Positions 1,608 through 22,308 of a DNA stretch of 23,562 bases are shown here, in pieces. The notes below the pieces were generated by a model that did not search any database, was not told the origin of the DNA, and saw nothing but the letters and a program-made list of their open reading frames with translations. Position 1 is the first letter of the stretch; every line of letters begins with the position of its first letter. The translations under genes were made by a program, and so were the position numbers. The stretch covers positions 1 to 23,562 of the IMG/VR virus record IMGVR_UViG_3300025280_000177; one strand, given 5' to 3'. This DNA comes from a virus.

Positions 1608-4600
1608 GTGATCATTGGATCTCCAGTTAATTTAGCTTCCTCCCTTGCGGCTAATACCCGTATGGCTCTTTGTTCAGGTGTTTCCTGTGCTTGTGCCTGT
1701 GCTACTTGAGCAAGAGCTTGAGGAGGAGCAGCTTGAGCGGGGGGGATTCCAAGTCCGCTCCTAACTTGGGCTGGTAGTCCTTGAACAGCCGGCCCTATTT
1801 CCTCAGATGTTTCCTTGAGGAACTCCATCCCAGGTTGGATTATTTCCTCACTAATTGTTTCTCGCGTGTCAGCGGAGGGTTGTAACTGAGACAGTGTCAT
1901 TAATCGAGCTTCTTGGGCAACACGTTCACGTATCTCCATCATTAATGGACTAGCTTGGTCCACATCTGCACCAGCCCTTAACCCTTGTTGATACAGTCGT
2001 CTTCCACCTTTAAGCCCCATTACTCCTGCTTGGTATCGGGGTTTTAGTAAACTGTTTAACAGCCATTTTTGGCGTAGAACGCGGCCCATGGTAAAGATAG
2101 CCAAGGCTTCTCCCATGAAGTGAAGAGGTTCCGTGACCAATCTAAAACCAGCACCAGCAGCAAACGCGGCGGGGGCCAACCCGGTCTTGCTTCTTAGAGA
2201 ACTATCAGAAATACGTTCCCCAAGCTTGGAGAATTGTATAAGGCTATCCACCGTGTCCTGACCCAATATTTTAGACAGGGACCCTGTGCCGTGGGAATCT
2301 GTTTTACCATTTAGATTCTGGATCGTCCTCCGCATGGCATTGCCCCATGAACCTGAAGCAATTGCATCTGGGGTAATACCTTCTGGGAAAGAAGTAGACA
2401 CGATCCGCGCCATAACAGCATCTTTAAAACCACCAGCGGCCTCCAATTTGGGGATGCCAAATTCATTCACCAAACGGTCATAGTGATTTGGATTGGCTAT
2501 AACGGATTCTACCAGATCGTCAGCATTCTGTAGTCGTCCCGTCCGTACAGCTTGGAACAACTTGTCGTCACTTTGACGAATTGATTCTTTAAGAATCCCC
2601 TGAAGATTGGCGATCTCATCTGCAATGGGTCGTTCCCCTACCGCCGTTGCCGCTCTTTGTCGGATAGCCGCCGCATCTCCTCTTAGAATTTGAGCGGTAG
2701 CATTGGCGAACTCCGTTTTACCAAAGCCCACCATGTGATAGTCCTTGAACAGACTTCTCATAGCGTCTGCGTTTTGCTTGCCGAATAGAGAGGTCTGAAG
2801 GCCCTCTCCTAATTCATCAAAACTCTGGGCGAATTTACCAGGGTCAAATGCCCCAAATCGGCTGGATGCTAGAGAGTTTTGTTCTAACCATTCTCTGGCT
2901 AATGAATCTCGGAAAGCGTTCCGTACATCTATGGGCTTGGCTCTTGCTTCCGCCATGTTTGCGTACTTGCCCATCATACGCATAAATTCACCTTGGACTT
3001 GTTTTCGGTATGGATCCATTTTGCCAAACTTGTCTGGCGCTAGATCTTCTATAAAAGCGGGGAGTCTTGGGAGCAACTCGTCACTTATTTGTGCGCTTTC
3101 TAAAAGCTTATTCGCTGCTCTTATTTGACCAGCGTCCACCAACGCGGCGGCTTCTCTGAAGACGGGGGCCTTGGCCTTTGTCAACCCTTCCATAGAGCGT
3201 CCCGTGGGGGTAATAAGTTTCAGGTAGTAATTCAGTTTCGCTGGGTTTCCAGGCTCAATAAGGGTTTCAAGAACTGGTTTTCCACCCACAAATAACCTTT
3301 CCTTAATGTTTTTATCCAGAGCTTCAGCCGCCCCGTCCTTAAACCTTTTTATTCCAGAAGCATGAACCTTGTTGGCTTTTTGCCAAATTCGTATTGCATC
3401 ATCAAATTGTGCGGCTAATGCTGGATCCCACACTGGGCCAGCAGGATTCATCCCCGCCATAGCAGTTCCTTGGGGAGTTCTTAGATATGCCAATCCTTCC
3501 AGGCGATTTGTTATTGTATTATTTATTGAATCTATGAGATCTCCAAAATGTTTATCGGTTATTCCGGGCATTAAGGTAGGATCCTTCGATTTCGTCCGAA
3601 GGGCCGCACGCAAGGAAGTAAGCTCATTTAACGTAAAACTGTCTTTACCTCTGATATACTGAAGCAGTCCTGATCTAAATGTATCTCCAAGCGCAGCACT
3701 TTGTGCTTTGTCAGATTCCATATTTCTAATGACGTTTTTCATAGGTGCTGCATTAAACGTACCTACGTTTACTCCTCCTGGTCGTTTAATAATTTGACCA
3801 GGTATTATACCAAGTTCTGCTTTGGCCGCAGAATTTAAGGTGTCTACCCAGTCAGCCTTATGAACTTTTCCAGTAGCATCTTTCCAAGGTACGCCTTGCT
3901 TGATCTCTCTTCCTTGATAAGACCATCGTCTTACTACTGTAGGTGCCACACTACCAGGAAGTATAAGGGCCTTAAATGCGTCGTCCACTTTGGAATAATA
4001 ATGAGCGGAATCCTGCTCGAACATCCGTGCAGCTTGGTTTATGCCTTGTTCAAACTGGACATCCAGACTTCCCGGTTTGTACATCTTGAGTAGAATATCA
4101 AACTCGTTGTCTATGACTTTTTTGAGATGTTGATCCGCAAGACGAAGAGCTTCGTCGGCATCGGCGTTTTTCATGCGGTTATTTATTTCCCGGCTAATAA
4201 TTTCGGCTTGACGTTGCAGACCACTTTTCGCTTCTGCTTGTGAAATAGCACCCCCGTAATAATCTTTTAGTAATTGATCCACATATTTACGGTTCAGTTC
4301 CGCTGCTTTGCGGTTCGGGAAGATACCCTCATAGATCGCCTGTAAACGACCCGTGATGGCTTTGCCGCTGACTTCACTTATAGTGGGACGTGCTCCTCCT
4401 TTTACTGAACGGCGAAGCTGAGTTTTCGCTTCTTCCCGTGCCATTAGTTCCGCACCTTTGCGACCCATCCCTCTAGCCATAAGTTCCTCTATCCTAGCTG
4501 CATCTGGCCGTGGACCAGGACCCTTGATAAGACGACGGCCTAACCCCCAAATGCCGCGTGTTATTCCTTCCCCCAAGCCATACAGAACTCCAGTAATGGC

Positions 4601-5245
4601 CATGTCTCCGTACACTTCCTTATCGGACTGTAGTTGAAGACCTTCATATTTCTTTTCAATAAGTTCATCAATCCCTCTGCCACCGGCACCCGCCGCTGCC
4701 ATGAGAAGCATTCCAGGGCCAATGCCCACTCCGCTGAACATAAGTCCAGCCCCTAAAGCAAGCCCCAGAGGTCCGGCTTCTTGGCCGCCCAATCGAGACA
4801 GGTCATAGACCGAGAAGCCTTTCTCGTTGACGCGGATCGTACCTTCTTGCGGGAGATTGTATTGGTTCTTTAACTCTGGGGATATCTTATCGAGCAAAAG
4901 AAAAAAATCATCGTGGCCTACTTGCTCATAAGTGCCTGGACCAAATGTTTGTTCCAACCGGAGAGCACGTTCATCATCTCTATCCGCTCTACCGTAAAAG
5001 AACTGAAAGCCGTGGTCCTGTACTTCACCCTCATTAGTAGGGACGGGTACTTCGACTGCTTCTTGCTCTATTTCTTCTTTAGGAGCGGCCCTAATTATCC
5101 GTTCGGATAGGTCAGGGAAATCACTTGGGGTTGCTGATTGAAGAACCGTTGTCTGAATAGCTAGTAACTCTTCCTTAGTTGGTTCATCCCCAGCTATCTC
5201 AAAATCTACAAACCCATCTGGTGTTTCAACATTAATAAAGCCCAT
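1604..5245 (-). CDS. large putative internal virion protein, 1213 aa
   Basis: This is a very long virion-type protein without a recognised enzymatic motif. The N-terminus (about 1-30) has a short acidic module with VETPDGFVDFEIAGDEPT. An acidic linker follows, and near residues 157-190 there is a Gly/Ala-rich hydrophobic stretch (GPLGLALGAGLMFSGVGIG) that could insert in a membrane. The long middle is charged, Lys/Arg/Glu-rich and probably mostly helical. The C-terminus is Ala/Gln/Pro-rich (PPAQAAPPQALAQVAQAQAQ) before a helical tail. Its size and its place just before the lysis genes recall the largest ejected core protein of T7-like phages (gp16, about 1300 aa), but no lytic transglycosylase motif was seen. 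The start at 5245 follows the TGA of the preceding gene by 8 bases and has only a weak ribosome-binding site. The call as structural or ejected is inference from context. Confidence 0.7.
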   Translation of the reverse strand: MGFINVETPDGFVDFEIAGDEPTKEELLAIQTTVLQSATPSDFPDLSERIIRAAPKEEIEQEAVEVPVPTNEGEVQDHGFQFFYGRADRDDERALRLEQTFGPGTYEQVGHDDFFLLLDKISPELKNQYNLPQEGTIRVNEKGFSVYDLSRLGGQEAGPLGLALGAGLMFSGVGIGPGMLLMAAAGAGGRGIDELIEKKYEGLQLQSDKEVYGDMAITGVLYGLGEGITRGIWGLGRRLIKGPGPRPDAARIEELMARGMGRKGAELMAREEAKTQLRRSVKGGARPTISEVSGKAITGRLQAIYEGIFPNRKAAELNRKYVDQLLKDYYGGAISQAEAKSGLQRQAEIISREINNRMKNADADEALRLADQHLKKVIDNEFDILLKMYKPGSLDVQFEQGINQAARMFEQDSAHYYSKVDDAFKALILPGSVAPTVVRRWSYQGREIKQGVPWKDATGKVHKADWVDTLNSAAKAELGIIPGQIIKRPGGVNVGTFNAAPMKNVIRNMESDKAQSAALGDTFRSGLLQYIRGKDSFTLNELTSLRAALRTKSKDPTLMPGITDKHFGDLIDSINNTITNRLEGLAYLRTPQGTAMAGMNPAGPVWDPALAAQFDDAIRIWQKANKVHASGIKRFKDGAAEALDKNIKERLFVGGKPVLETLIEPGNPAKLNYYLKLITPTGRSMEGLTKAKAPVFREAAALVDAGQIRAANKLLESAQISDELLPRLPAFIEDLAPDKFGKMDPYRKQVQGEFMRMMGKYANMAEARAKPIDVRNAFRDSLAREWLEQNSLASSRFGAFDPGKFAQSFDELGEGLQTSLFGKQNADAMRSLFKDYHMVGFGKTEFANATAQILRGDAAAIRQRAATAVGERPIADEIANLQGILKESIRQSDDKLFQAVRTGRLQNADDLVESVIANPNHYDRLVNEFGIPKLEAAGGFKDAVMARIVSTSFPEGITPDAIASGSWGNAMRRTIQNLNGKTDSHGTGSLSKILGQDTVDSLIQFSKLGERISDSSLRSKTGLAPAAFAAGAGFRLVTEPLHFMGEALAIFTMGRVLRQKWLLNSLLKPRYQAGVMGLKGGRRLYQQGLRAGADVDQASPLMMEIRERVAQEARLMTLSQLQPSADTRETISEEIIQPGMEFLKETSEEIGPAVQGLPAQVRSGLGIPPAQAAPPQALAQVAQAQAQETPEQRAIRVLAAREEAKLTGDPMIT

Positions 5246-5253
5246 AATCTATC

Positions 5254-8181
5254 TCAATCAGGAGGTTGATAATGCTTAAACATATATCGGGTAACTCCAT
5301 CCTCACCCACTACAGGTTCATACATTAATTCAGTAAACTTGGCAGCTTGTTCAGAAGTTAGTTGTGGTCTATCCACCGTGGCGTATATTCGTTCCGTAGT
5401 CCGTCCTATTCCCTCAAGAGCTTCTTTTCGGATGGGTTCCAGCATGTAGCTAGCACTTCTCTCCGCTCTATCTATATAAATCCCAAATTCTGTTTCGATA
5501 GTATCCATGGTGATTATGGAATTATTATAATTCTTTAAGATTCTATCCCTTATCCTTCCTAATTTGTCCGCAACTATTTGTGGATCAGCAGTAATCATAG
5601 CTCTTCCGCTATAAAGTCCAATTATTTCCCTAGCAAGTTCTCTATCAATATTGGATATATTTTTGGAGCCCTCCCCCAAAATTTCTCTAATAAGCAGATT
5701 GGCTAATTCGTTCTGTTGGGCAATAAATTGTTGGGTTTCTCTGCCTTCTGCTGCGTACTTATCAAATAAAGAGTATTGTCTGCGAATATTTTTTAGACGG
5801 GCTTTTCTGTCTTCCGAAAGTGCTTTCCCATTTTCATCCCTGGCTGCTTCGATATCTGCATCTGTTACCTCACTCATATTCTCAATTTGTTTGCCGTCGC
5901 CGCGACCTATATTAAAGGCATTGTAAAACTTGTTTACGCCAACCTTTAAATAAGTCCCTAAACCAGTAGTCTGTCCGCTTTCAGTAAGGGCAAGGCTTGC
6001 ATCTGTTAGGGCCAACTGGGTGGCATAATCTGCTGTTCTAGTAGCGGCATCGAGGTAGGTTTCTTTTTGGGCCTTGATATATGTATCTGATGGTCCGCCT
6101 TGCTTAGTTGCGCCAATCATGACTCGCATAGATTTAACTGCTTGATCCGCTGCATACTCTGCATCTGCTTCTAGTCTTGCGGCGGCTAGTGCTATACCTT
6201 CTACTTGTCCGTCATAATCTCCGCTGTGAATATCAGCATTACTAAGAAAGAATGAAGTTCCTTTTTTCGCTCGTATATCACCATTTGGCCAAAATACGTC
6301 TTCGGTGGCCACAATCTCCCGTACTTCGCGGCCTTCCTTATCCATGGCACGTTGATGCGCGACATCCCTATCTACGGCCTCAAGTGCATACTTCGCGGCT
6401 GAGATCTCAACTTGTTGTTTGTAAGCTCGACGTTCCTTCTCATCATCGGTAAAGTTATCAATAGTTGCGTATACACCATTGGCTACGTTGGTAATGGCAT
6501 CAGAACTTTGACCAGCCGCAATCGCCATACCCATCTTTACGATGTCCATTCCTTTTTCCCACTCAGACTTGCCTTCGTAGTCTGGCATCGCATCTGTAAA
6601 CCTCTTAATGTAGTCTTCAACTGACGTAACACCAGCTTCCTCGCTTTCCCCAAAAGCTGCTACCACCGCATTTGCTGCTGTTCTATCGTAGGGGAGTCCT
6701 TCTCGTACATCTGGAGGTTCTTCTCCAACAGTGGGTGGAGGAACAGTTTCTAGAGGACGAATAGGAGCGTCTGGCTTTTCGGGGGGTGGTGGAGGTAAGT
6801 CTCGGTCAGTAACCTCCGCTCCTGGCCATAGTTGATCTGGCGCCTTTCTCATAGCCACAATATCTGGTACTCGATGCGCTGTATCTTCAGTACTCCCAGC
6901 GACTACTGGAGCCTCCGCTATGGCTATCTCTTGGTCCCCCACCTCATCCACACGGGCCAAAAGATTTTGAACATATCCGCTTCCCTTACTAGCGGTTAAC
7001 TCTTGAATAAACGCTAATTGTTGATCAGGACTGTCCATCATTCCTTGGTAAGTCCTGAGATCGTCAGCCAATCCTTTCTCCCCTAGAATTGTTACTCTAG
7101 CTTCTTGTTGAGTTAGGGGGCTTGTATCCGCTATTATTTCTTCAGCACGTGTAATGTCAGGCAAATCTGTAACACGGCCTTCTTGAGAAATACCCTGCAT
7201 ACTGGTGGCTTCTTGTGTCTTCTGATTGTAAAATGTCTCTGATATAGCAAGCCGATATTCATCTGGGCTCATATTTTGACCTTCTTCGGTGGCCATGAGT
7301 GCATCAGAGATTTGTCCTAATTCCACGGCGTAGTCTGGTTGAGCCGCTATCATATTGGTGAAGGCCCTAGTCTTTCCCCAGCCCAATGCCTTATCATCCT
7401 GTTTCTCAAACAGAAAACCAATCGAATTTCTAAGGGTTTTCCCTCCGTGGTATGTCAAGCGGGTCCCCAATTGTCCAAGAAAAAGCGCTACATGCGCTGG
7501 TAGCGAGGCACCCATCTCCGCATACGAAGGAGCACCTTCCCCAAACCAAGACTCTTGTGACACTAAATTTTCTTCAAGAGGCGGGTTCATAGAATGAAGC
7601 CCTGCGTCTACTTCAGCAGAATATGGGAACATCATATTGTACCGAACTTCTGCTGGCGACGTAGTACTTGTTCCTGTTGGGGACCATTGCATATTCCTAA
7701 ATGGCCCTATATCGATGGTTTCAGTCCCTGGTCCACGGGTGGTTGTGGGAGGGAACGCCATTGCGTAGGATTCGTCAGGTGTCGCAGAATCCACATACTC
7801 GTAGCTAGATGCTTTGGGAGTGTCACGAAGACTCGGATCCGCCTTTACCATTCTTCTCCATTCTTCAGGAGTCACGTCAGGATACCCCTGAGGGTATGAA
7901 CCCGTTTCAACTCTCCTCCCTATACCTATTCCTGGTCGATAAGATTGGCTACTCCCATGTGGGTGGGCGTGAGCCGTACCCCCCATATGAAACCGGGCAA
8001 CCCCACCCTGGTTCATGGACAGTGTACCACCGCCCTGTGGACTCATGGCATCCGCCGTTACTGCGTCGATCAAGGGGCTCGAAGAAGAAAGGATTCCGCT
8101 AGCCGCTGGAGGGGTGTCGGCCAACCCCCCACCACGGAACATTTTACGGTTTGCTAATACAGCCTTGATTGCACGTGCCAT
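5254..8181 (-). CDS. putative virion protein, 975 aa, with Gly-rich N-terminal motifs and a proline-rich linker
   Basis: The function is not recognised. The N-terminus carries short Gly-rich motifs (MFRGGGL, then LSMNQGGVARFHMGG, residues about 55-69) of a kind repeated in marine phage virion proteins. Residues about 70-250 are low-complexity and rich in Pro, Ser and Tyr. A proline-rich linker with PPPPPEKPDAP falls near residue 465. The C-terminal 450 residues are Ala/Glu/Lys/Arg-rich and probably helical, with possible coiled coil. The ATG at 8181 has AGGA 8 bases upstream and follows the previous gene's TAG by 9 bases. It lies between the Gln-rich 346-aa protein and the 1213-aa protein and has no catalytic signature. 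An internal or ejection protein, or a large tail-associated protein, are the main alternatives. Confidence 0.7.
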   Translation of the reverse strand: MARAIKAVLANRKMFRGGGLADTPPAASGILSSSSPLIDAVTADAMSPQGGGTLSMNQGGVARFHMGGTAHAHPHGSSQSYRPGIGIGRRVETGSYPQGYPDVTPEEWRRMVKADPSLRDTPKASSYEYVDSATPDESYAMAFPPTTTRGPGTETIDIGPFRNMQWSPTGTSTTSPAEVRYNMMFPYSAEVDAGLHSMNPPLEENLVSQESWFGEGAPSYAEMGASLPAHVALFLGQLGTRLTYHGGKTLRNSIGFLFEKQDDKALGWGKTRAFTNMIAAQPDYAVELGQISDALMATEEGQNMSPDEYRLAISETFYNQKTQEATSMQGISQEGRVTDLPDITRAEEIIADTSPLTQQEARVTILGEKGLADDLRTYQGMMDSPDQQLAFIQELTASKGSGYVQNLLARVDEVGDQEIAIAEAPVVAGSTEDTAHRVPDIVAMRKAPDQLWPGAEVTDRDLPPPPPEKPDAPIRPLETVPPPTVGEEPPDVREGLPYDRTAANAVVAAFGESEEAGVTSVEDYIKRFTDAMPDYEGKSEWEKGMDIVKMGMAIAAGQSSDAITNVANGVYATIDNFTDDEKERRAYKQQVEISAAKYALEAVDRDVAHQRAMDKEGREVREIVATEDVFWPNGDIRAKKGTSFFLSNADIHSGDYDGQVEGIALAAARLEADAEYAADQAVKSMRVMIGATKQGGPSDTYIKAQKETYLDAATRTADYATQLALTDASLALTESGQTTGLGTYLKVGVNKFYNAFNIGRGDGKQIENMSEVTDADIEAARDENGKALSEDRKARLKNIRRQYSLFDKYAAEGRETQQFIAQQNELANLLIREILGEGSKNISNIDRELAREIIGLYSGRAMITADPQIVADKLGRIRDRILKNYNNSIITMDTIETEFGIYIDRAERSASYMLEPIRKEALEGIGRTTERIYATVDRPQLTSEQAAKFTELMYEPVVGEDGVTRYMFKHYQPPD

Positions 8182-11297: not shown

Positions 11298-11465
11298 TCA
11301 GCCTAAAAACCAGTTTTTAGCATTAGTTTCGTCTTCCCCGGTTATTACCGCTGGAAAGTCGAATTTCGTAAGGGCCATCTCCAGGTCCCGCATAATTCGG
11401 GAGAAAGTATCCTGGTCATAGGTAGCCGGAACCAGTGGAAAGTTGTGGTCAAGTAAAGAGGCCAT
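11298..11465 (-). CDS. hypothetical microprotein, 55 aa
   Basis: The longest frame runs back to 11570, but that part lies wholly within the end of the nozzle gene. The ATG at 11465 is preferred because it forms a TAATG overlap with the upstream stop and has GGGAGAAG at 11469-11476. The product begins MASLLDHNFPLVPATYDQ and ends GEDETNAKNWFLG. Its centre (QDTFSRIMRDLEMALTKFD) is an amphipathic helix. It has no cysteines, signal peptide or membrane segment. Its position between the tail nozzle-like protein and other small virion proteins suggests a tail or assembly accessory role, which is not proven. Confidence 0.7.
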   Translation of the reverse strand: MASLLDHNFPLVPATYDQDTFSRIMRDLEMALTKFDFPAVITGEDETNAKNWFLG

Positions 11466-13729
11466 TATCTTCTCCCGTCCGGTCGGACATTGAGGCGGGT
11501 ATCCCCTAAAGTCCATGTAGTATCCGTTTTGGAACTTGCAATTCGGAGAGTTGCGCTTCGGCCCCGGCACCGGACATTGGCTTGTGTCGTAGTTGCGGTG
11601 ACCGTGGTCGAGGCTTCGGTTACTAAGCTGTCACCGGGGAAGGGCCTGGTTTTCAGGACATATCCCACCTCGGCATCGGTGCCGCTGACTACGATGTCGG
11701 GAATAACCTTATTGATAAATAGAAACTCGTTGCCATCCCCTATGTCAAAGTCCGCAGACTCAATAAAGGATTCCATTGCGCTTCCGTCATCATTCTGCGT
11801 GTTCTCATGGTTATAAATGTATTCTACGGAACTCGCAGACCCCGCTCCTCTGGGGTTGTCGTGAATACCAAAGTCTACCCACGCGGTACGGGAAAGAGTG
11901 CCAATGTCCCATGTATTTTCCGTGTAGTTAAACTTGGCATAGCGGTCTATTTCCGTAGCATCGGAGGACACATAGAAGAAAAAGATCTCGTCAAACATGC
12001 GGTTGGAACCAGCAAAGAACTTACGGCTTTGCGCCAGATTGATGTCATCAAAAATATACCGAAGTACCGTGCATGGGATCACTTCCGCTCGTCCCGTGTA
12101 GGTGTAGAAGTTCTCTCGATCCATCCAGAAGATCCGGTCCCCTATTGCTACCACCGCATTTGGAGAAATGACGGAGATGTTGTTGGACACCAGTGCGAAC
12201 CCAAACGTAAAGGGTGGGCCAGTAAACCTCATGCTGTAGAGGGATACATCCGTCCAGATTAGAATTTCCTGTCTTGTCTTTTGGGCCGCTATAATCTCGG
12301 ACCCTGTAGACAGCCGTTGGCTTCCTGATGTGTTGGTAGCCGTAGGGGTCCAATCAAAAGGAGACTCTTGGTCTGACCAGCGAACCATTAGTAAATCTTG
12401 GGTAGCTTCCCCTAGCGCATTGCAGCCAAGAGCTACGATATGCCGATCCGCACCGGAAACCATAAGCTGGTGCGTAACCGTAGGAGCATCAGAAGCACCC
12501 GTCTGGGATGCAAAAGTGGTGGCGCGAGCACCTAGCCCCAAGGTCTTGTCCCAATAGTAGGGGGTACTGTCTACCGGGCAAAAGGCAAGATCCTCCCCCC
12601 AATTATCCTGGGACCAAAGCCTCAACTGCAGGGTGGACGTACTCGCAGTAGCTCCACCAAAAGTGGTAAAGTCGTTGGCTTCTTTAACAATAGTGGTGTC
12701 TGCGTGAGCCACTGCTGTTGTTCCTCGAACTCCTCGTACCACCCCTGCATCCAAGGTATGGGAAGTTTTTCCTGTGTACTGGATCAACTCATCTTCGATC
12801 TGAATCAAACCAACAAACGTAACGGCTGCACTACTGCTATGGGTTGCAATAGTTGTGCTATCCGTGTTTCGAGTTAAATCACTCAGTACATTGCCCGTCT
12901 TCGTTCCGTAGCGTATTTTCTCGCTCCCTACAAGAATGGTTCCTTTGTCTGGGAACGCACTAGCGGAGGCAAGAGAAATAGTGTCACTTGTGAGAGTGAC
13001 GTTGGCACTAAGTGTGCTGGAAGCCGTTTCAAAGTCTGTTGCACTGGTAAGTATAATAGAAGTAGCGGAATCTGAAATAAGCCCATTAAGCGTAGTCTGG
13101 GAGTAAGTAGAAGTTGGGCCACCAAAAAGACCCGCACCAAAACCAATACCTCCCACACTGACCGTCAAACCAGAATTAATTTGATAAATAGCCGTGGGGG
13201 TTCCTCCTCCTGCCGTAGACCCGGAAGAAGCGGAACCCGCTGTAGTAATGGTGTAACTGTTGGCATCTATAATCGTGATCTGGTGCTCGGTATTCAGTTG
13301 AGCAGCCGTGATTCCATCTGTCGTAGTTGCACCGGAAAAGGTTACAAAGTCATTGGTTACCGCCCCGTGACCGGGATCCGTAACGGTTACGATAGCACTT
13401 CCTGCATCCCCAGTTGTAAAGGGATTACTGGCAAGTGTCGCAGTTCTACGAACAGGGGTTACGTCGTTATAGGCACCCCCTTCCTCCACATAGAATTTGC
13501 TGTCTGTACCTACCCCCATATAATTGGCCCCATCCAGTGCCGACCATATGTGCAAGGATCGTGTAGTGCCTTCGATTGTATCGGAGCTAAGTCGGGTCCA
13601 GCCACCCATCTTCTCCGGGTGACCCTTCCGAAACCGGATTAGATTGGAGTCAAACCACCCATTTTCACTGGCATAGGAAGTGGCTTCCTTATTAACCCCT
13701 GGAACAAAAGTAATCTTGGTTAACGGCAT
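11465..13729 (-). CDS. tail nozzle/hub-like virion protein, 754 aa (P22 gp10-like)
   Basis: The protein opens MPLTKITFVPGVNKEAT followed by GGWTRL (residues about 42-47), an N-terminus typical of podovirus tail accessory/nozzle proteins. The C-terminal half has the repeated beta-propeller-like phrases expected of this class: MVRWSDQESPFDWTPT, QEILIWTDVSLYSMRF and GDRIFWMDRENFYTYTG. Residues about 98-176 form an inserted module (NPFTTGDAGS, then PGHG at 119-122, then IIDANSYT) that is also present in the 167-aa protein. Residues about 257-303 and 308-349 are two related beta units ending in 'ATHSSSAAV' and 'VAHADTTIV'. Its place after the fibre genes fits a tail-tip or nozzle role. The comparison with P22 gp10 is from remembered family patterns, not a search. 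Confidence 0.75.
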   Translation of the reverse strand: MPLTKITFVPGVNKEATSYASENGWFDSNLIRFRKGHPEKMGGWTRLSSDTIEGTTRSLHIWSALDGANYMGVGTDSKFYVEEGGAYNDVTPVRRTATLASNPFTTGDAGSAIVTVTDPGHGAVTNDFVTFSGATTTDGITAAQLNTEHQITIIDANSYTITTAGSASSGSTAGGGTPTAIYQINSGLTVSVGGIGFGAGLFGGPTSTYSQTTLNGLISDSATSIILTSATDFETASSTLSANVTLTSDTISLASASAFPDKGTILVGSEKIRYGTKTGNVLSDLTRNTDSTTIATHSSSAAVTFVGLIQIEDELIQYTGKTSHTLDAGVVRGVRGTTAVAHADTTIVKEANDFTTFGGATASTSTLQLRLWSQDNWGEDLAFCPVDSTPYYWDKTLGLGARATTFASQTGASDAPTVTHQLMVSGADRHIVALGCNALGEATQDLLMVRWSDQESPFDWTPTATNTSGSQRLSTGSEIIAAQKTRQEILIWTDVSLYSMRFTGPPFTFGFALVSNNISVISPNAVVAIGDRIFWMDRENFYTYTGRAEVIPCTVLRYIFDDINLAQSRKFFAGSNRMFDEIFFFYVSSDATEIDRYAKFNYTENTWDIGTLSRTAWVDFGIHDNPRGAGSASSVEYIYNHENTQNDDGSAMESFIESADFDIGDGNEFLFINKVIPDIVVSGTDAEVGYVLKTRPFPGDSLVTEASTTVTATTTQANVRCRGRSATLRIASSKTDTTWTLGDTRLNVRPDGRR
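11469..11476 (-). promoter_or_regulatory. Shine-Dalgarno GGGAGAAG that sets the start of the 55-aa gene
   Basis: On the minus strand this purine run overlaps the last codons of the 754-aa gene and sits directly before the TAATG junction at 11465, supporting the short start over the 11570 form. Confidence 0.5.
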
Positions 13730-15394
13730 CTAAATCTTCCATATTCGTACATCAGCGTAAACTTCCACAACACCGAAAGTACAGGCTACACCACCCGTAC
13801 CACTGGTGCTTACACGATGTTGCAATTCAACGGACTTAGACCCTGAAAGCGTGAAGCGTCCATCCATAGTTGCTAAAGTGGTAATTAGGCCCCCGTCATC
13901 TGCATTTACACCAACGAGTAAGGTAGTTCCATCTGTGGTATTCTGTAATCGTAACTTATGAAGATCGCATTGGTCAGCGGGGGCAGAACAAGCAATATAG
14001 TAACTTCCAGCAGGGATAGTCATGGTACTGGAAGAAACAGAAACCCCCGTTATTTCATTAGTTTTTACAGTGTTAAGATCTCGTTTGGTCCAACTTCCGC
14101 TACTAAGACTTTGAGCAACAGTTCCATCGGATTTTTCATCGCGTACCTGGAAAAGAGCGGAACCAAAATTGTCACCAGCCGCAGCCCAAGCATTGTCGCC
14201 TCGAAGGAAAACACTAGACGAGGCTGTTCCCGTTGCGGATAGTTGGGCCACCCCAACCGCATCGTCAGCTACTTTTGCGAGAGTAACCGCATCATCCGCA
14301 ATCATAGCGGTTGCCACCGTTCCATAGGAAGCATCCGTTCCATCCGATTGAAGAACCGTGTTTGCAGATCCAACAGCCAATGCCGCAGGATCTCCGCTGC
14401 TGTCACCGGAAATAATAGAACCTCTGGCTAATCCAGCCATCTTTGCCAGAGTAACCGCGTTATCCTGAATAGAAGCAGTTGGTACTCCAGCCGAGCCATT
14501 TACCTTGAACCCAGATTCCAGATCCGGGACCCCTGTGCCGTTCCCAGCCAGGGAGAGATCCCCGTTTGTGGCTAAAGAAGTAATGGAATCTACCGTCCAC
14601 ACACCCGCACTTGTCAAACGGGCTTTCTCAGCGGCTGTCGCACCACCGACCATGGTGTTAACAACCAAATCAAAATCTTCGGCCCCGGAAGAAACGTCTG
14701 TAGTGACGGATTGAATGGTATGCCCAATTTCATTGTTCCCAGCAGCGGTCTCCGTGGTAAATTCGATACCCGTACCAATACCAGCAGCGGGTGTGCCGCT
14801 ACTCGTTCTTTTTACGATAAGAGGATTCAGTACTGTATTCGTGCCGCTATCTTCTTTTGCTGTGGTAATGCCAGCAGAAGAGGTTACTGCGCCATCCAAA
14901 GCAGAGGTTCCCGTTACTTCCAAGGTAGTGACTTGAATATCCGCTAAAGCGTTAGTTACGACAGCCCCACTTCCAGCCCCGTCGCAATAGACGATTACAT
15001 TTTTGCCATTCTGAAGAGTAACATCTGCACCAGATCCTTGGCTAAAAACAAGCGAATAAGGACCACTGGAACCAGCGTCCGTGGTTGCATTCTCAAAAAT
15101 AAACCATGCTTTGGTAGTATTGGGGGCAATCGTAATCGTGCAGAGTTGACTTAGAGCACCCGTGAACTTGATAACACGAAACATTCCATCTTGTAAATTT
15201 TCAGTGGCTTCCGCAGGAGAAGCTTCTCGAACCGTTAAGGTCGCAGTAGATGCATCGGACAGGGTTACTGCCTTGTACGAAGCAATACGATCCAGAATGT
15301 CTAGATTGAAGTTAGTGGTTGTCCCCCACGTACCAGCTTGGTCGCCTGTCGCAACAGCTTCAAAGCCGAAGTTGGTTGTGAACGTAGAAGCCAT
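13730..15394 (-). CDS. tail fibre protein 2, 554 aa, with beta-sandwich-like C-terminal domain
   Basis: Residues 1 to about 170 form an anchor domain (MASTFTTNFGFEAVATGD, TVREASP, ENLQDGMFRVIKFTG, YCDGAGSGAVVTNAL) that is clearly homologous to the start of the 383-aa fibre encoded at 18758-19909. The centre is Ala/Ser/Thr/Gly-rich with repeated short units such as 'IQDNAVTLAKMAGLARG' and 'IADDAVTLAKVADDAVG', as in fibre shafts. The last 140 residues, starting FQVRDEKSDGTV, then DLNTVKTNEITG and ending VVEVYADVRIWKI, look like a C1q/TNF-like jelly-roll tip used for receptor binding in marine phages. AGGAGA lies just before the ATG. The TAG abuts the start of the nozzle gene. The fibre assignment is firm and the receptor is unknown. 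Confidence 0.86.
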   Translation of the reverse strand: MASTFTTNFGFEAVATGDQAGTWGTTTNFNLDILDRIASYKAVTLSDASTATLTVREASPAEATENLQDGMFRVIKFTGALSQLCTITIAPNTTKAWFIFENATTDAGSSGPYSLVFSQGSGADVTLQNGKNVIVYCDGAGSGAVVTNALADIQVTTLEVTGTSALDGAVTSSAGITTAKEDSGTNTVLNPLIVKRTSSGTPAAGIGTGIEFTTETAAGNNEIGHTIQSVTTDVSSGAEDFDLVVNTMVGGATAAEKARLTSAGVWTVDSITSLATNGDLSLAGNGTGVPDLESGFKVNGSAGVPTASIQDNAVTLAKMAGLARGSIISGDSSGDPAALAVGSANTVLQSDGTDASYGTVATAMIADDAVTLAKVADDAVGVAQLSATGTASSSVFLRGDNAWAAAGDNFGSALFQVRDEKSDGTVAQSLSSGSWTKRDLNTVKTNEITGVSVSSSTMTIPAGSYYIACSAPADQCDLHKLRLQNTTDGTTLLVGVNADDGGLITTLATMDGRFTLSGSKSVELQHRVSTSGTGGVACTFGVVEVYADVRIWKI

Positions 15395-15409: not shown

Positions 15410-15880
15410 TTATGTTGGTTCCGTGGGCCAAGTAAACGAATCAGGCCATGCCGACATATCTGTTGTTGCGGGTAAATCTCGTAGAACTTGTCTGTAAGTC
15501 GCCCATTCCGCTTTCTTGTCCGCAGCCAAAGAAAACGAATAGTCAGATACTTGCGTCCAATCGGAAGCTGAAAGTTTTTCGTCCCTCTGCTCCCGTAAAT
15601 GGCTCATATGACTTGCATCACGCGCAGCTATTTCCTCTGCCGTCATATCCCTTGCACGATGTATCAAAAGTACTCTGTTTTCTTCGACAGTAACTATATC
15701 TGTATTGAACGTCTGGTTGGTAGCAAGAGTAACATTTGTCTCCACAAGCGGAAGCCACCCAATGGTCTTGAGATATGCATTATTGCCGTTGGACAAATGT
15801 AAATTGGATACGTTGCCCCAGTTCCTTGGCAAACTACCCAAATAATCTACGCTGCCATCGTCTTTAACGTGTGCATACAT
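15410..15880 (-). CDS. tail fibre assembly chaperone-like protein, 156 aa
   Basis: The C-terminal half matches the phage tail assembly chaperone pattern (PF16778-like): an RDEKLSASDWTQVSDYS segment, then KKAEWATYRQVLRDLP and a final WPDSFTWPTEP. The N-terminal half (MYAHVKDDGSVDYLGSLP, then NGNNAYLKTIGWLPL) is the variable part that in such proteins may contact a particular fibre tip. It starts inside the end of the sulfotransferase-GT gene (34-base overlap) behind a strong AAGGAG at 15889-15894, and ends 16 bases before the second fibre's start. This position directly before a fibre gene supports a role in folding or attaching that fibre. Confidence 0.78.
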   Translation of the reverse strand: MYAHVKDDGSVDYLGSLPRNWGNVSNLHLSNGNNAYLKTIGWLPLVETNVTLATNQTFNTDIVTVEENRVLLIHRARDMTAEEIAARDASHMSHLREQRDEKLSASDWTQVSDYSFSLAADKKAEWATYRQVLRDLPATTDMSAWPDSFTWPTEPT

Positions 15881-17595
15881 CGCAACCGCTCCTTAATCTT
15901 TGCGAAAGGCTCTTCCCAACTTCCATATTTTTCCTGTCGGAAAAGAGTGACGCTATCATAATATGGTGTCACATCTCCCGGTAGCGCCCACAAGTAGTAT
16001 GACAAAACAGGAACTACAATCCATGTTTCCACACCCATCGATGCTGCCAAATGTGCAACGCTGGTGCAGGAGCTTATTACTAGTTCACATTGGCTGATGG
16101 ACTTCCTGGTAACTTGCCAATCATCTAACGGAGCTTGCCCCATCCACTCTGGTTTCAGCTCTGCATCTTTATCTCTCTGCAACGAAACACAAGTATATCC
16201 CTTAACAGCATCAAACATTAAACCAGCCGGGAAGAACCTGTGCTGTTCATGCTCAAACTTAGGATTACCACTCCACCTTACTCCTACACGTCCCGGTATT
16301 GGGTCAGCAGTACGATCAATATACGGAGTTCCTTTTAAATCTTCATATTCATATCCCAGGGGAACGACTGCCGACATCGAAGGAAGCCAGTAATCATGGT
16401 ACGTTCCACACGCTGCATCATGTTCTACTACTGGAAAGTTCTCTGCAAACATAGGAGCTAATTCAGGCGAACAGGAAATTACCACTCTATTTCCTCGTTC
16501 CTGCAAAGCAAAAGCAAACCGATAACTCTTAATCTGGTCACCAAGACCCCCTTCCAGATTAAGCAGGACAGTTCCTTCTTCTCCATTCCAGATAGGTTGT
16601 TTGGAACCTATATGCCTGTTGCCAAATACATCTTGCCTTCGCCCTTGATCTAAAAGTTTATGCCCCTCCAATAATTTACCTTGTCGGAGCAGATACCATC
16701 CACGGTTAAAAGCTGCGCGTTGACAGGTTGGGGTTTCCTTCTCCAGTTGTTGAGCAATTTCCCAACCCTTCTTAAAATCTCCCCGTATCCCTGCTGCTAA
16801 TTGCAGGTCTATCAAGGTCTCTTTCTTTGTAGGTTCTGGCTGGTCATTCCAGAACTCTCCGCCAGAATAATGCTCCCATAACTCATCGCCCAACAACTCT
16901 TGTGGAGAGTACTTCTGTTGACTAACCACTGGACGTATCCGGTGCAAATCTTTAATGCCCCATATCCCGTCCTCCTCTGTCGAGGGAGGGACATTATCAA
17001 GTTCATGGGTGAATTGTTCTACCCCAATGAAATCAGAAATACGATTCATCTGAATCTGAGTGTGGTTTACCAATTCATCATATTCAATAAGCAAAAGATT
17101 ATCTGGATACTCCTTATAAGCATTACGTAATTCAGTATAAGTATTAATAATATACACACTTAAATCTTTAATAAGACTTTCTTTCCCATGAATATACTCA
17201 GCATTTTTCGAGGGACGAATAAGTTTATAAACCGAAGCAAGACATTCATTGATAGGACGTACCGTTGCAACAATCTTAACTTCTACCTGATTTTTCATCA
17301 TCAATTTGATAACTTCTAAATCAGTCCATGTTCTTGATTTATCAAAAATTATAGGACAATCAACTTTCCCGTACCGATATTGTTTCAATACTTCTACACA
17401 TTCTTCTTTTTTCAATCCATCTGACTGTACAGTTGTCAAAGTAGTGTTAGTTTCCCAGAAACCATTAAAAGCCATCAGAATATCTGCCATATTACTTGTA
17501 TTACTGGCATAAGTATCAGGACGCTGGTTTAATAAACTAGTTAAAAGTGTTGAACCAGATCTTGGGATTCCAGCTAAGAATTTTAATTTCTTCAT
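15847..17595 (-). CDS. sulfotransferase-TPR-glycosyltransferase (GT9-like) fusion, 582 aa
   Basis: Two enzyme modules share one frame. Residues 1 to about 245 are a sulfotransferase: GIPRSGSTLL (9-18) is the P-loop-like 5'-phosphosulfate loop for PAPS, and R113 with S121 (VRPINECLAS) fit the 3'-phosphate-binding motif with normal spacing. Residues about 255-335 are TPR-like (AFNRGWYLLRQGKLLEGHKL). Residues about 340-575 are a GT9/heptosyltransferase-like domain: NLEGGLGDQI (346-355), RVGVRWSGNP (436-445), SSCTSVAHLAASMG (508-521) and WALPG...YDSVTLFRQ. It would transfer sulfate and a sugar to surface or virion glycans; the acceptor is unknown. The ATG at 17595 forms TGATG with the RCC1 stop. 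The gene lies among tail-fibre genes. The sulfotransferase half is much more AT-rich than the GT half, suggesting separate origins. Confidence 0.87.
   Translation of the reverse strand: MKKLKFLAGIPRSGSTLLTSLLNQRPDTYASNTSNMADILMAFNGFWETNTTLTTVQSDGLKKEECVEVLKQYRYGKVDCPIIFDKSRTWTDLEVIKLMMKNQVEVKIVATVRPINECLASVYKLIRPSKNAEYIHGKESLIKDLSVYIINTYTELRNAYKEYPDNLLLIEYDELVNHTQIQMNRISDFIGVEQFTHELDNVPPSTEEDGIWGIKDLHRIRPVVSQQKYSPQELLGDELWEHYSGGEFWNDQPEPTKKETLIDLQLAAGIRGDFKKGWEIAQQLEKETPTCQRAAFNRGWYLLRQGKLLEGHKLLDQGRRQDVFGNRHIGSKQPIWNGEEGTVLLNLEGGLGDQIKSYRFAFALQERGNRVVISCSPELAPMFAENFPVVEHDAACGTYHDYWLPSMSAVVPLGYEYEDLKGTPYIDRTADPIPGRVGVRWSGNPKFEHEQHRFFPAGLMFDAVKGYTCVSLQRDKDAELKPEWMGQAPLDDWQVTRKSISQCELVISSCTSVAHLAASMGVETWIVVPVLSYYLWALPGDVTPYYDSVTLFRQEKYGSWEEPFAKIKERLRCMHTLKTMAA
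15889..15894 (-). promoter_or_regulatory. Shine-Dalgarno AAGGAG for the chaperone gene, inside the upstream gene
   Basis: AAGGAG on the minus strand is 8 bases from the ATG at 15880 and lies within the last codons of the sulfotransferase-GT gene. It supports the 34-base gene overlap as genuine. Confidence 0.65.
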
Positions 17596-18758
17596 CAAGC
17601 CGACCGTATACCGTGCATAACGTTACTTTGAGAATTACCTACTGAAATCCAATCTGTATCAGAGCCGACCTGTGCTGGTGAACTAATAGATGTAGTATTT
17701 CCTTGGGCAGTAAGACCATTGGCACCATCTCCCCAAGTCCATAACGTGCCATCAGTTTTAACACTTGCACCAACCCAATTCGGAGCAGACGTTACCTTCC
17801 AATCTGTTAAAGAACCAACCTGAACGGGAGAAGACCTATTAGTTGTATCTCCTAAACCTAATTGACCTTTATCGTTTTTACCCCAAGTCCATAACGTGCC
17901 ATCAGTTTTAACTGCTAAAACATTATCTTTATAACCCATTTCCGCATAAGACCATTCCGTAGTACCAATTTGAACAGGAGAAGATTTACTAGTAGTAGTT
18001 CCATCACCTAGTTGACCGCTAGCATTATGACCCCATGTGAATAGAGCACCGTCTGATCTAAGAGCAACAACGGCAAACCACCCTTGATTGACTAAAGTCC
18101 AAGTTTCCAATGACCCAATTTGAGCCGGGGATGATACTGAAGTTGTACTCCCAGTCCCTAATTGCCCTTGTCCACCATATCCAACGGACCACAATTGACC
18201 CGAAGTATCTGAGCCATGATTAGTAATAGCAAAAGCAGTCCTATAGTTTCCACTGCATTTTATCCAATAGGTTGCAGACCCAATTTGAACTGGTGAGGAA
18301 TAGGCCGTTGTATCCCCTTGTCCAGCTTGTCCGTAAGAATTGGTACCTCCTACATGCCACCAAGTATTATCCGTTTTCGTTGCCCACGTTTCATAACCAC
18401 CTGTGCAAGTGGCCCAATCTGTTAAAGAGCCAACTTGAACAGGAGAACTGTACTGAGTAGTATTTCCATGACCAAGTTGACCATTACCTCCTCGACCCCA
18501 AGTAAAAAGTTTACCATCCTCATCAATAGCCATTGTAGAATCCCCGGCAGCACTATATTTCCATGATCCATAATCATCTAAATCTACAATTTGCCAATTT
18601 GTATTACTTCCAATTTGAACAGGAGAAGATCTATCAGTACTACTTCCATCTCCTATTGCACCTTGTGAGTTTTCTCCCCATCCCCAGAGAGTTCCTACAT
18701 TACCACCAGCACTAGTCGAACCAGCAGAACCCATCATTGCTCGTCTAATATTAGACAT
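17595..18758 (-). CDS. RCC1-repeat beta-propeller tail protein, 387 aa
   Basis: After a short N-terminus (MSNIRRAMMGSAGSTSAGG) the protein consists of seven tandem RCC1-type units of about 50 residues. Each has a W-G-x-x-x-x-G-Q-L-G-x-G-x-T-T core followed by SSPVQIG or SSPAQVG, for example LFTWGHNASGQLGDGTTT and LWTWGKNDKGQLGLGDTT. Seven repeats are enough to close a seven-bladed propeller. There is no signal peptide. The start overlaps the TAA of the 383-aa fibre gene (TAATG) and the stop overlaps the start of the sulfotransferase-GT gene. The context suggests a fibre-tip or adhesin-like subunit that binds a host-surface ligand, not a nucleotide-exchange factor; eukaryotic RCC1 function should not be inferred. 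Unit 3 (WWHVGGTNSYGQAGQG) and unit 7 are the most divergent. Confidence 0.87.
   Translation of the reverse strand: MSNIRRAMMGSAGSTSAGGNVGTLWGWGENSQGAIGDGSSTDRSSPVQIGSNTNWQIVDLDDYGSWKYSAAGDSTMAIDEDGKLFTWGRGGNGQLGHGNTTQYSSPVQVGSLTDWATCTGGYETWATKTDNTWWHVGGTNSYGQAGQGDTTAYSSPVQIGSATYWIKCSGNYRTAFAITNHGSDTSGQLWSVGYGGQGQLGTGSTTSVSSPAQIGSLETWTLVNQGWFAVVALRSDGALFTWGHNASGQLGDGTTTSKSSPVQIGTTEWSYAEMGYKDNVLAVKTDGTLWTWGKNDKGQLGLGDTTNRSSPVQVGSLTDWKVTSAPNWVGASVKTDGTLWTWGDGANGLTAQGNTTSISSPAQVGSDTDWISVGNSQSNVMHGIRSA
17731..17912 (-). repeat. direct nucleotide repeats inside the RCC1 gene, 150-base period
   Basis: A 32-base stretch beginning ccccaagtccataacgtg is identical at 17731-17762 and 17881-17912. The spacing is exactly 50 codons, one propeller blade. 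The near-perfect copy suggests recent blade duplication or gene conversion. Confidence 0.75.
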
Positions 18759-19909
18759 TACGATGGACTCTTACTGTCAGCACTGGCAACCATACCATGC
18801 CAGATTGTGCCACCATCGGTGGTAATAAAAACGAGGATATCTATTCCACTGGTAGTTAAAGTTGGTGCCGTCCCACCGGCCCAATCTACAGTACCAGGCC
18901 AATTTACCGTTTGCGATCCACCGTTTGTCAGGAACAGTGTAAAACCGCAAAGCTCGTCAGAAGCAGTAGGATTGCTAAATGTAAAAGTATTGGCAGAAGT
19001 GTCTACTGTAGCTACAACATTGTTACCTAAAGTTAGATCAATATCTTGTGTACCTCCACCAGTACTACCAATAGCATTGGTGACTTCCCCATAATCTTTA
19101 AGATTAATAGCCGAAACCGTTTGGTCGGCACCTGTGACAGCACCTGCTAGAGTTTGCGCTGGGACAGCATTGACATTCTCAACCGCAAATGTTCCTAAAC
19201 CGATTGATGTTCTAAGTGTAGCTCCAGATTCAGCAACTGGGTCAGTAGTACCGTCACCTACAATCATTTCACCATCAGCTAAGGCTGCCATAGCTGTAAT
19301 AGCGCCAGTACCAGAACCTAATAAAACTCCACCATCAGTTAATGATGATGCACCAGTTCCACCGTTAGCTACGCTAAGATCAGTCCCCAAGGTTAATGCA
19401 CCGTCGATTGCCGCCGCACCAGTACATTCCAAAGTAGCAATCTGTAAATCTGAAAGAGCATTTGTGACTACCGCTCCGCTTCCGGCCCCATCACAATAGA
19501 TAATGGCATTTTTTCCATTTTGTATGGTGACAGATGCTCCTCCTCCACTTCCTTGTTTCATAAGTAATGAATACGGGCCGCTTGAGCCAGTATCAGTAGT
19601 AGCGTTTTCAATAATAAACCAAGCAGTAGTGGTATCTGGAGCAATGGTCACCGTACAGTTCTGGGCTAATGAACCTGTAAATTTGATGACCCGGAACATG
19701 CCATCCTGAAGATTTTCCGTTCCAGTTCCAGGAGAAGCCTCTCGAACCGTAAGGGTGGCTGTCGCTGCATCCGACAAGGCAACTGCCTTGTATGCGGCAA
19801 TCCGATCCAAAATATCAAAGTTAAAATTAGTGGTATCACCCCAAGCGCCAGTTTGATCCCCAGCAGCCATCTCTTCGATACCAAAATTAGTAGTATATGA
19901 TGAAGCCAT
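18758..19909 (-). CDS. tail fibre protein 1, 383 aa
   Basis: Residues 1 to about 172 (MASSYTTNFGIEEMAAGD, TVREASP, ENLQDGMFRVIKFTG, YCDGAGSGAVVTNAL) are the same anchor domain as in the 554-aa fibre. Next comes a short shaft with NGGTGASSLTDGGVLLGSGT and GEMIVGDGTTDPVAE, phrases common in phage fibres. The C-terminus differs completely from fibre 2: LGNNVVATVDTSANTFTFSN, a SQTVNWPGTVDWAGG strand pair and a closing FITTDGGTIWHGMVAS, resembling a small beta-sandwich found at the ends of phage tail proteins. AGGAT precedes the ATG at 19909, in a gap of 9 bases after the previous stop. It probably provides the connector onto which the RCC1 protein or other tips attach. Confidence 0.85.
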   Translation of the reverse strand: MASSYTTNFGIEEMAAGDQTGAWGDTTNFNFDILDRIAAYKAVALSDAATATLTVREASPGTGTENLQDGMFRVIKFTGSLAQNCTVTIAPDTTTAWFIIENATTDTGSSGPYSLLMKQGSGGGASVTIQNGKNAIIYCDGAGSGAVVTNALSDLQIATLECTGAAAIDGALTLGTDLSVANGGTGASSLTDGGVLLGSGTGAITAMAALADGEMIVGDGTTDPVAESGATLRTSIGLGTFAVENVNAVPAQTLAGAVTGADQTVSAINLKDYGEVTNAIGSTGGGTQDIDLTLGNNVVATVDTSANTFTFSNPTASDELCGFTLFLTNGGSQTVNWPGTVDWAGGTAPTLTTSGIDILVFITTDGGTIWHGMVASADSKSPS

Positions 19910-21804: not shown

Positions 21805-22308
21805 CTATGGACTCACTGTTACAGGGCCAGCGGAAGCAAAACCACCCCCACCTCGGACAGATCCACTTGTGGCAGTCCCGCTACTGGCGGTAAAGGTATA
21901 ATTAGCATCATCGACTTTCGTAATAGAAAACCCGGCAGCAGTTTCAATCATACTGGCAGTGAAGCCATCAAAGGCCTCTGCACTACGAAATCGGACTGTA
22001 TCCCCCGTGCTTCTACCGTGTCCTGGTTGGTATACATTGATAGTTGTCGATCCAGAATCCCCTGATCTGAACGGATTAAACTGAAGAAGAACTTCTACTG
22101 GCGGTTCCACCCTGTCTGGGCGACTTATGCGTAAGGCTTGAGCGTCTGGGAGAACCTTCGCCGGCGTAAGTTGAGGCTGCTTCGCCTCAAATTCGTCCTT
22201 TCCTACCAAAAACCCATTCCATTCAATGGCCATATCTCTAAGCCGATAGGCCCTACCAGACATATCTGAGATGCCCATCGCATATTTTTCACTTGCGTAT
22301 CGAGACAT
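21805..22308 (-). CDS. virion-type protein, 167 aa, with inserted beta module
   Basis: The N-terminus (YASEKYAMGISDMSGRAYRL, then EWNGFLVGKDEFEAKQPQL) is a small conserved-looking domain of marine phages. In layout it resembles a rubredoxin-like zinc ribbon but lacks cysteines at those positions. Residues about 78-155 form a second module (NPFRSGDSGS, PGHGRSTGDTVRF, DDANYTFTASSGTA) that is also found inside the 754-aa nozzle-like protein, so it is a shared, possibly surface-exposed, domain. AAGGAT lies before the ATG at 22308. It sits between two probable connector proteins, which suggests a neck or tail accessory; its exact role is unknown. Confidence 0.73.
   Translation of the reverse strand: MSRYASEKYAMGISDMSGRAYRLRDMAIEWNGFLVGKDEFEAKQPQLTPAKVLPDAQALRISRPDRVEPPVEVLLQFNPFRSGDSGSTTINVYQPGHGRSTGDTVRFRSAEAFDGFTASMIETAAGFSITKVDDANYTFTASSGTATSGSVRGGGGFASAGPVTVSP

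Follow-up and report, generated by a model that had tools for sequence, protein, structure and literature searches.

The protein examined here joins a sulfotransferase (ST) to a TPR segment and a glycosyltransferase (GT) of the GT9 fold, and it is probably a dedicated enzyme for the cytoplasmic O-glycosylation and sulfation of the RCC1 propeller encoded by the preceding gene, with the serines of Ser-Ser-Pro loops serving as acceptors. The partnership between RCC1 and the GT is itself very well supported. Beyond this one enzyme, we judge the chances to be a little better than even that it belongs to a widespread TPR-GT9 system with an exchangeable ST or methyltransferase, which places a decorated glycan on one SSP loop of each RCC1 blade in diverse tailed phages and in some Bdellovibrionales and Patescibacteria, and that phages thereby possess sulfated glycoprotein receptor-binding proteins. 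The gene is located in a virus record of 23.6 kb, the whole of which (23,562 nucleotides, hereafter the window) was analysed. The source of this record is probably a podovirus-like phage; a DNA polymerase A fragment in the window has its nearest relative in Pelagibacter phage HTVC023P (43.5%), and a P22-type tail stabilisation protein is encoded at positions 11465-13729. A small protein encoded at 21805-22308 has a stretch of about 80 amino acids in common with this tail protein (45% identical).

The frame of the fusion gene runs uninterrupted on the minus strand from an ATG at 17595 to a stop codon at 15847-15849. A preliminary description of this DNA had proposed the same frame, leaving the strand unsaid, and the frame proved to be intact. 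The motifs that it had listed, GIPRSGSTLL (residues 9-18), R113 and S121 in the ST half and GGLGDQI, RVGVRWSGNP and SVAHLAASMG in the GT half, were all recovered. Its suggestion of coupling to the upstream RCC1 gene was borne out by the junction TTGATGAAG, in which the RCC1 stop codon TGA and the ATG of the fusion gene share a single base, the A of both codons, and the overlap it had described with the downstream chaperone gene amounts to 34 bases (15847-15880). It had also held that neither half looked decayed, and we agree: the frames are intact and the key motifs invariant, on which grounds a decaying fusion was rejected. Orthologues of the fusion with 84-100% identity occur in at least four other contigs. 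Nor is the fusion a rare oddity, since 37 of the 80 representatives (90% clusters) carry a fused ST. The proteins encoded by the two tail-fibre genes of the window are about 76% identical in their first 170 or so amino acids and diverge thereafter, as in an exchange of distal domains. The positions of the features are listed in Table 1.

Table 1. Features of the fusion gene and its neighbourhood in the window.
Feature	Position	Strand	Size and basis
ST-TPR-GT9 fusion gene	15847..17595 (stop included)	minus	582 aa; Pfam and predicted structure
Sulfotransferase domain, aa 1-252	16840..17595	minus	PF13469; AF2 model; TPST1 fold match
TPR segment, aa 258-324	16624..16824	minus	structural and profile matches
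GT9-fold (heptosyltransferase-like) glycosyltransferase domain, aa 341-580	15856..16575	minus	predicted structure
RCC1 propeller gene	17595..18758	minus	387 aa; PF00415 2.3e-50, 7 repeats
SSPVQIG, blade 1, candidate acceptor serines	18609..18629	minus	
SSPVQVG, blade 2, candidate acceptor serines	18429..18449	minus	
SSPVQIG, blade 3, candidate acceptor serines	18279..18299	minus	
SSPAQIG, blade 4, candidate acceptor serines	18114..18134	minus	
SSPVQIG, blade 5, candidate acceptor serines	17964..17984	minus	
SSPVQVG, blade 6, candidate acceptor serines	17814..17834	minus	
SSPAQVG, blade 7, candidate acceptor serines	17664..17684	minus	
Tail-fibre assembly chaperone (Phage_tail_APC)	15410..15880	minus	156 aa; PF16778 7.6e-18; PHROG tail fibre assembly
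Tail-fibre protein	18758..19909	minus	PHROG 31104, 9017
Second tail-fibre protein	13730..15394	minus	PHROG 24210 1.5e-21

The N-terminal half of the protein was matched by the Pfam Sulfotransfer_3 profile (PF13469) over residues 6-193 (1.8e-12) and by PHROG 27463 (2.9e-43). When this half was folded alone by AF2 with an alignment of 43 relatives, a model with a mean pLDDT of 91.2 and a pTM of 0.89 was obtained, the best fold match of which was TPST1 (5wri; Z 19.9 over 239 amino acids, rmsd 3.8). TPST1 and TPST2 were the closest solved folds (Z 19-20), and polyketide-synthase and heparan sulfotransferases scored below them in the fold comparison. The PAPS loop PRSGST occupies residues 11-16, and R12, S13, G14, T16, R113 and S121 are invariant across 43 ST sequences; both the loop and the R113/S121 pair for the 3'-phosphate are invariant or nearly so among the relatives. 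The features of the sulfotransferase superfamily, namely the PAPS loop, the R...S pair and the fold, are thus all present in the ST half. The catalytic residue of TPST, which we take to be the glutamate within the GEETR stretch, is without a counterpart in the ST family, where the profile alignment places non-acidic residues. Since this stretch is not conserved, we do not call the ST half a TPST.

The TPR segment that follows was recognised by its structural similarity to the TPRs of AspH and OGT (Z 9.2-9.9 over 66-68 amino acids) and by a match to the consensus-TPR profile (E 0.003). For the GT half of the window protein, no usable match was found in Pfam, NCBIfam or PHROGs, and among its relatives the Pfam Glyco_transf_9 profile gave weak matches in 15 of 41 (best E 0.0032). 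Profile searching bore out the sulfotransferase family named in the preliminary description and gave the GT9 family weakly, in relatives of the window protein; because the sequence profiles are silent or weak, we base the GT9 assignment on the fold. The predicted structure of the GT half (pLDDT mostly 85-97) has a two-lobed GT-B fold like that of WaaC, as evidenced by matches to WaaC (6dfe, Z 15.1 over 226 amino acids), TibC (4rap, Z 14.8), WaaF (1psw, Z 14.6) and 3tov (Z 14.1). The top Foldseek matches were to SPINDLY, a TPR glycosyltransferase which we take to be a protein O-fucosyltransferase. Both the sulfotransferase and the GT folds are retained in the predictions, so the loss of fold that had been named as counting against the enzyme does not occur.

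D353, which lies within GGLGDQI, is invariant in 40 GT sequences. Residue 341 of the model pairs with residue 1 of WaaC, and residue 353 with residue 13 if the alignment is ungapped there; on that assumption D353 is predicted to occupy the site of Asp13, presumably the catalytic residue of WaaC. C510, also invariant, stands in place of the Asp of the heptosyltransferase C-lobe 'DTG..H' motif. In classical GT9 enzymes this motif has the Asp and is associated with an ADP-heptose donor; with Cys in its place, the donor of the phage enzyme may not be ADP-heptose.

A scan of IMG/VR with the C-terminal half of the protein yielded 399 relatives, from which 80 loci were kept; the ST half retrieved 80 further loci, and the window RCC1 protein only 8 loci. 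An RCC1 gene was found directly upstream of the GT in 66 of 78 loci after dereplication at 90%, in 36 of 43 at 70% (44 representatives) and in 10 of 15 at 50%, compared to 14/453, 7/283 and 4/141, respectively, or about 3%, among genes more than three positions from the GT. The RCC1 labels were confirmed by Pfam on sample proteins (2e-170 and 2e-75), and the seven repeats of a propeller are present in the window protein (PF00415, seven stretches). Co-occurrence was counted within phage records: among 50,697 annotated ones, RCC1 was present in five, the GT in five and both in four (Fisher 9e-17), these four being marine virus AG-345-E08 and the Synechococcus phages BUCT-ZZ01 and S-SRM01, the last twice. 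The ST of S-SRM01 and AG-345-E08 is encoded by a gene of its own, immediately after an RCC1 gene. MW202512, in the same phage collection, has a distant GT and no RCC1, and at two loci of distant plasmid TPR-GTs no RCC1 gene was found nearby. The pairing extends to bacterial assemblies of Bdellovibrionales, Patescibacteria and Pseudomonadales, and some of the short bacterial contigs may be viral. The RCC1 partners in three Bdellovibrionales loci begin, as judged by eye, with twin-arginine (Tat-like) stretches (SRRDFLK, TRRQFLE and TRRGFIK); such leaders would be consistent with modification of a folded RCC1 protein in the cytoplasm prior to export.

At one locus from near-identical phages, the RCC1 protein is 61% identical, versus 93-100% for its neighbours. 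Its position in the tail module, together with this variability, suggests that the RCC1 protein is probably a receptor-binding protein. The C-terminal domain of the fibre encoded directly upstream of it in the window precedes RCC1 in many related cassettes. Five loci have tandem cassettes of this fibre C-terminal domain and an RCC1 gene, as if RCC1 genes had been duplicated or exchanged as units.

The candidate acceptor was found by comparing the blades of 118 representative GT-paired RCC1 proteins with those of RCC1 proteins lacking a nearby GT. The structural Gly and Pro positions were alike in the two groups; the two positions before the loop proline were serine at frequencies of 0.87 and 0.91 in the GT-paired blades versus 0.10 and 0.19 in the unpaired ones. 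When the comparison was limited to blades that share the flanking Pro and Trp, the values were 0.88 versus 0.08 for S21 and 0.92 versus 0.19 for S22. Paired serines occurred in at least half of the blades in 110 of 114 RCC1 proteins near a GT and in 0 of 18 without one. Both groups were selected by a single profile, for which the window RCC1 was the seed, and the control group of 18 is small and mostly cellular. All seven blades of the window RCC1 have SSP. The main caveat is that the serine motif could be lineage-bound through shared ancestry of the GT-paired RCC1 proteins. At two loci with the S-SRM01-type GT, the most divergent kind with a long TPR, the RCC1 partners read N/S-Thr-Pro instead of Ser-Ser-Pro; judging from these sequences, this is possibly a co-varying acceptor.

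The partners of the GT are interchangeable. In the phage group of the window, GT halves are 88-92% identical whether or not an ST is fused to them. Among the 80 representatives (90% clusters), besides the 37 with a fused ST, the GT had a C-terminal extension in 23, stood alone in 13 and adjoined an ST gene in 7; at four loci and others, a separate ST gene lies directly downstream of the GT. In some relatives a methyltransferase is fused at the GT C-terminus, and a Patescibacteria locus (UBA2135; L175, positions 1649-5698) has an ORF of 1349 amino acids that combines ST, TPR-GT9-like, methyltransferase, TPR and GT41 parts and adjoins an RCC1 gene. Such swapping of modules would be expected of a glycan whose assembly is followed by capping of different kinds. 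The preliminary description had considered that the halves might turn up outside fibre loci, and this was seen for the ST only, relatives of which occur without a GT or RCC1 nearby at nine loci, that of S-SCSM1 among them, away from RCC1 and fibre genes. In six loci of larger phages, GT25, GT2 and methyltransferase genes come right after the RCC1-GT pair. The presence of these genes would suggest longer glycans, and some of the glycan genes near the loci of larger phages could have lipid-linked glycans or those of the host as their targets.

In the mechanism that we propose, the RCC1 chain and the enzyme would meet in the cytoplasm, aided by their translation from one message, and the short TPR segment may help to hold the RCC1 chain, as the TPR of FlmG does with its own substrate. 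The GT9-fold domain would then transfer a sugar from a nucleotide-sugar to a serine of the Ser-Ser-Pro loop in each blade, as the conservation of the motif leads us to infer, so that the propeller would bear some seven decorations at regular intervals. The TPST-like ST would subsequently add sulfate from PAPS, most likely to the transferred sugar, because relatives have methyltransferases instead of the ST, or no ST. The decorated propeller would finally join the neighbouring fibres and their chaperone in tail assembly, and the phage would likely gain in stability, in protection or in attachment to the host surface. We have moderate confidence in this chain of explanation as a whole.

The preliminary description had left two alternatives, namely that the enzyme modifies the Ser/Thr-rich fibres of the phage or that it changes the polysaccharide of the host surface. 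The gene neighbourhoods and motifs described above lead us to favour self-modification of the receptor-binding module over modification of the host. It is unlikely that the fusion alters host LPS or capsule after infection, thereby excluding rival phages or aiding release, with its place beside RCC1 and the fibres reflecting a variable host-interaction island. GT9 enzymes are classically LPS heptosyltransferases, with WaaC as the best structural match here, and GT25, GT2 and methyltransferase genes are nearby in the larger phages; however, the GT directly follows RCC1 itself whatever the size of the locus, in bacteria as in phages and not at fibre loci alone, the serine motif in each blade tracks the GT, and the nearest folds include the protein modifiers TibC, SPINDLY and TPST. 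As for the fibres, the GT is tied specifically to RCC1 and a serine pair is present in each blade, which makes RCC1 a likelier target than the Ser/Thr-rich fibres.

We likewise give a low probability to a tail fibre or other particle protein as the target, in which case RCC1 would be a co-inherited neighbour or a carrier of the enzyme. A related C-terminal domain of the fibre does recur in many cassettes, as does the chaperone, and the window fibres also consist of about 23% Ser plus Thr. No neighbour is as constant as RCC1, however; it serves as the partner in Bdellovibrio loci that have no recognised fibres, and it is the one protein for which the GT-associated motif was demonstrated. Direct sulfation of protein tyrosine, or of other side chains, on RCC1 or the fibres independently of any sugar appears similarly improbable. 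The closest solved folds of the ST are TPST1/2, and TPST is among its best profile matches (2.5e-11); by sequence, though, the polyketide-synthase sulfotransferase 4gox is its equal (4.9e-12), the family has no glutamate at the GEETR stretch, and exchange for a methyltransferase better suits a sugar substrate. Glycosylation of RCC1 followed by sulfation of the sugar is the reading that we retain.

Bacteria are known to O-glycosylate flagellins as well as repeat proteins of the cell surface. Within the searchable literature, outside of which most subscription papers lie, we found no account of an RCC1-GT system, of cyanophage RCC1 or of phage RCC1 together with a glycosyltransferase, and a conserved enzyme-substrate pair that sits where the tail binds its receptor and has exchangeable sulfation or methylation as its finish is apparently undescribed there. 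Phage RCC1 proteins are usually annotated as 'regulator of chromosome condensation'; if our reading is true, they would be decorated tail adhesins, and sugar chemistry would join phage host recognition. The reading predicts that a single protein bears modified serines at about seven sites.

Several known systems can be compared with this one. OGT and SPINDLY (GT41) have the TPR-GT architecture of protein O-glycosylation and include the top Foldseek matches, and a GT41 is fused to the RCC1-associated system of L175, whereas the catalytic domain in the window is GT9-like. TPST1/2 provide the nearest fold of the ST half; unlike them, the phage ST has no conserved catalytic Glu stretch, is presumably cytoplasmic and is fused to a glycosyltransferase. 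In mycobacteriophages, phage glycosyltransferases are thought to act on virion proteins, a likeness that would extend to RCC1 here. To our knowledge, capsid or tail proteins are the ones modified there, and neither an RCC1 partner nor a sulfotransferase is involved. Maravista has been mentioned in connection with phage virion glycosylation (PMC11256854).

FlmG of Caulobacter is a cytoplasmic enzyme made of TPRs and a GT-B glycosyltransferase, in which the TPR binds the substrate flagellin and the sugar is pseudaminic acid (PMC7591256). The combination of TPR and GT-B and a target that is assembled outside the cell are alike, and binding of the substrate by the TPR would apply here by analogy only; FlmG differs in its long TPR, its flagellin substrate, its pseudaminic acid and the absence of an ST; the likeness drawn here is one of architecture. 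The TibC/AAH autotransporter heptosyltransferases (BAHT; PMC4358343) also have a GT9-like fold, a surface repeat protein as substrate with multiple serine acceptors, and a catalytic Asp early in the GT domain, Asp110 in TibC; an iron finger and a dodecameric assembly also mark the BAHT family. TibC modifies serines of its protein and not threonines (PMC4358343), which may be seen as a parallel to the SSP motif and not as proof. In contrast to the N-terminal beta-barrel of BAHT, the phage enzyme has a helical TPR segment in the predicted structure, a fused ST and an RCC1 propeller as its proposed substrate; with a TPR instead of the barrel, it would work like a BAHT without being one. Since a defining feature of each of the BAHT and TPST families is absent, we place the phage enzyme as a variant of cytoplasmic protein O-glycosylation, TibC- and FlmG-like in its working.
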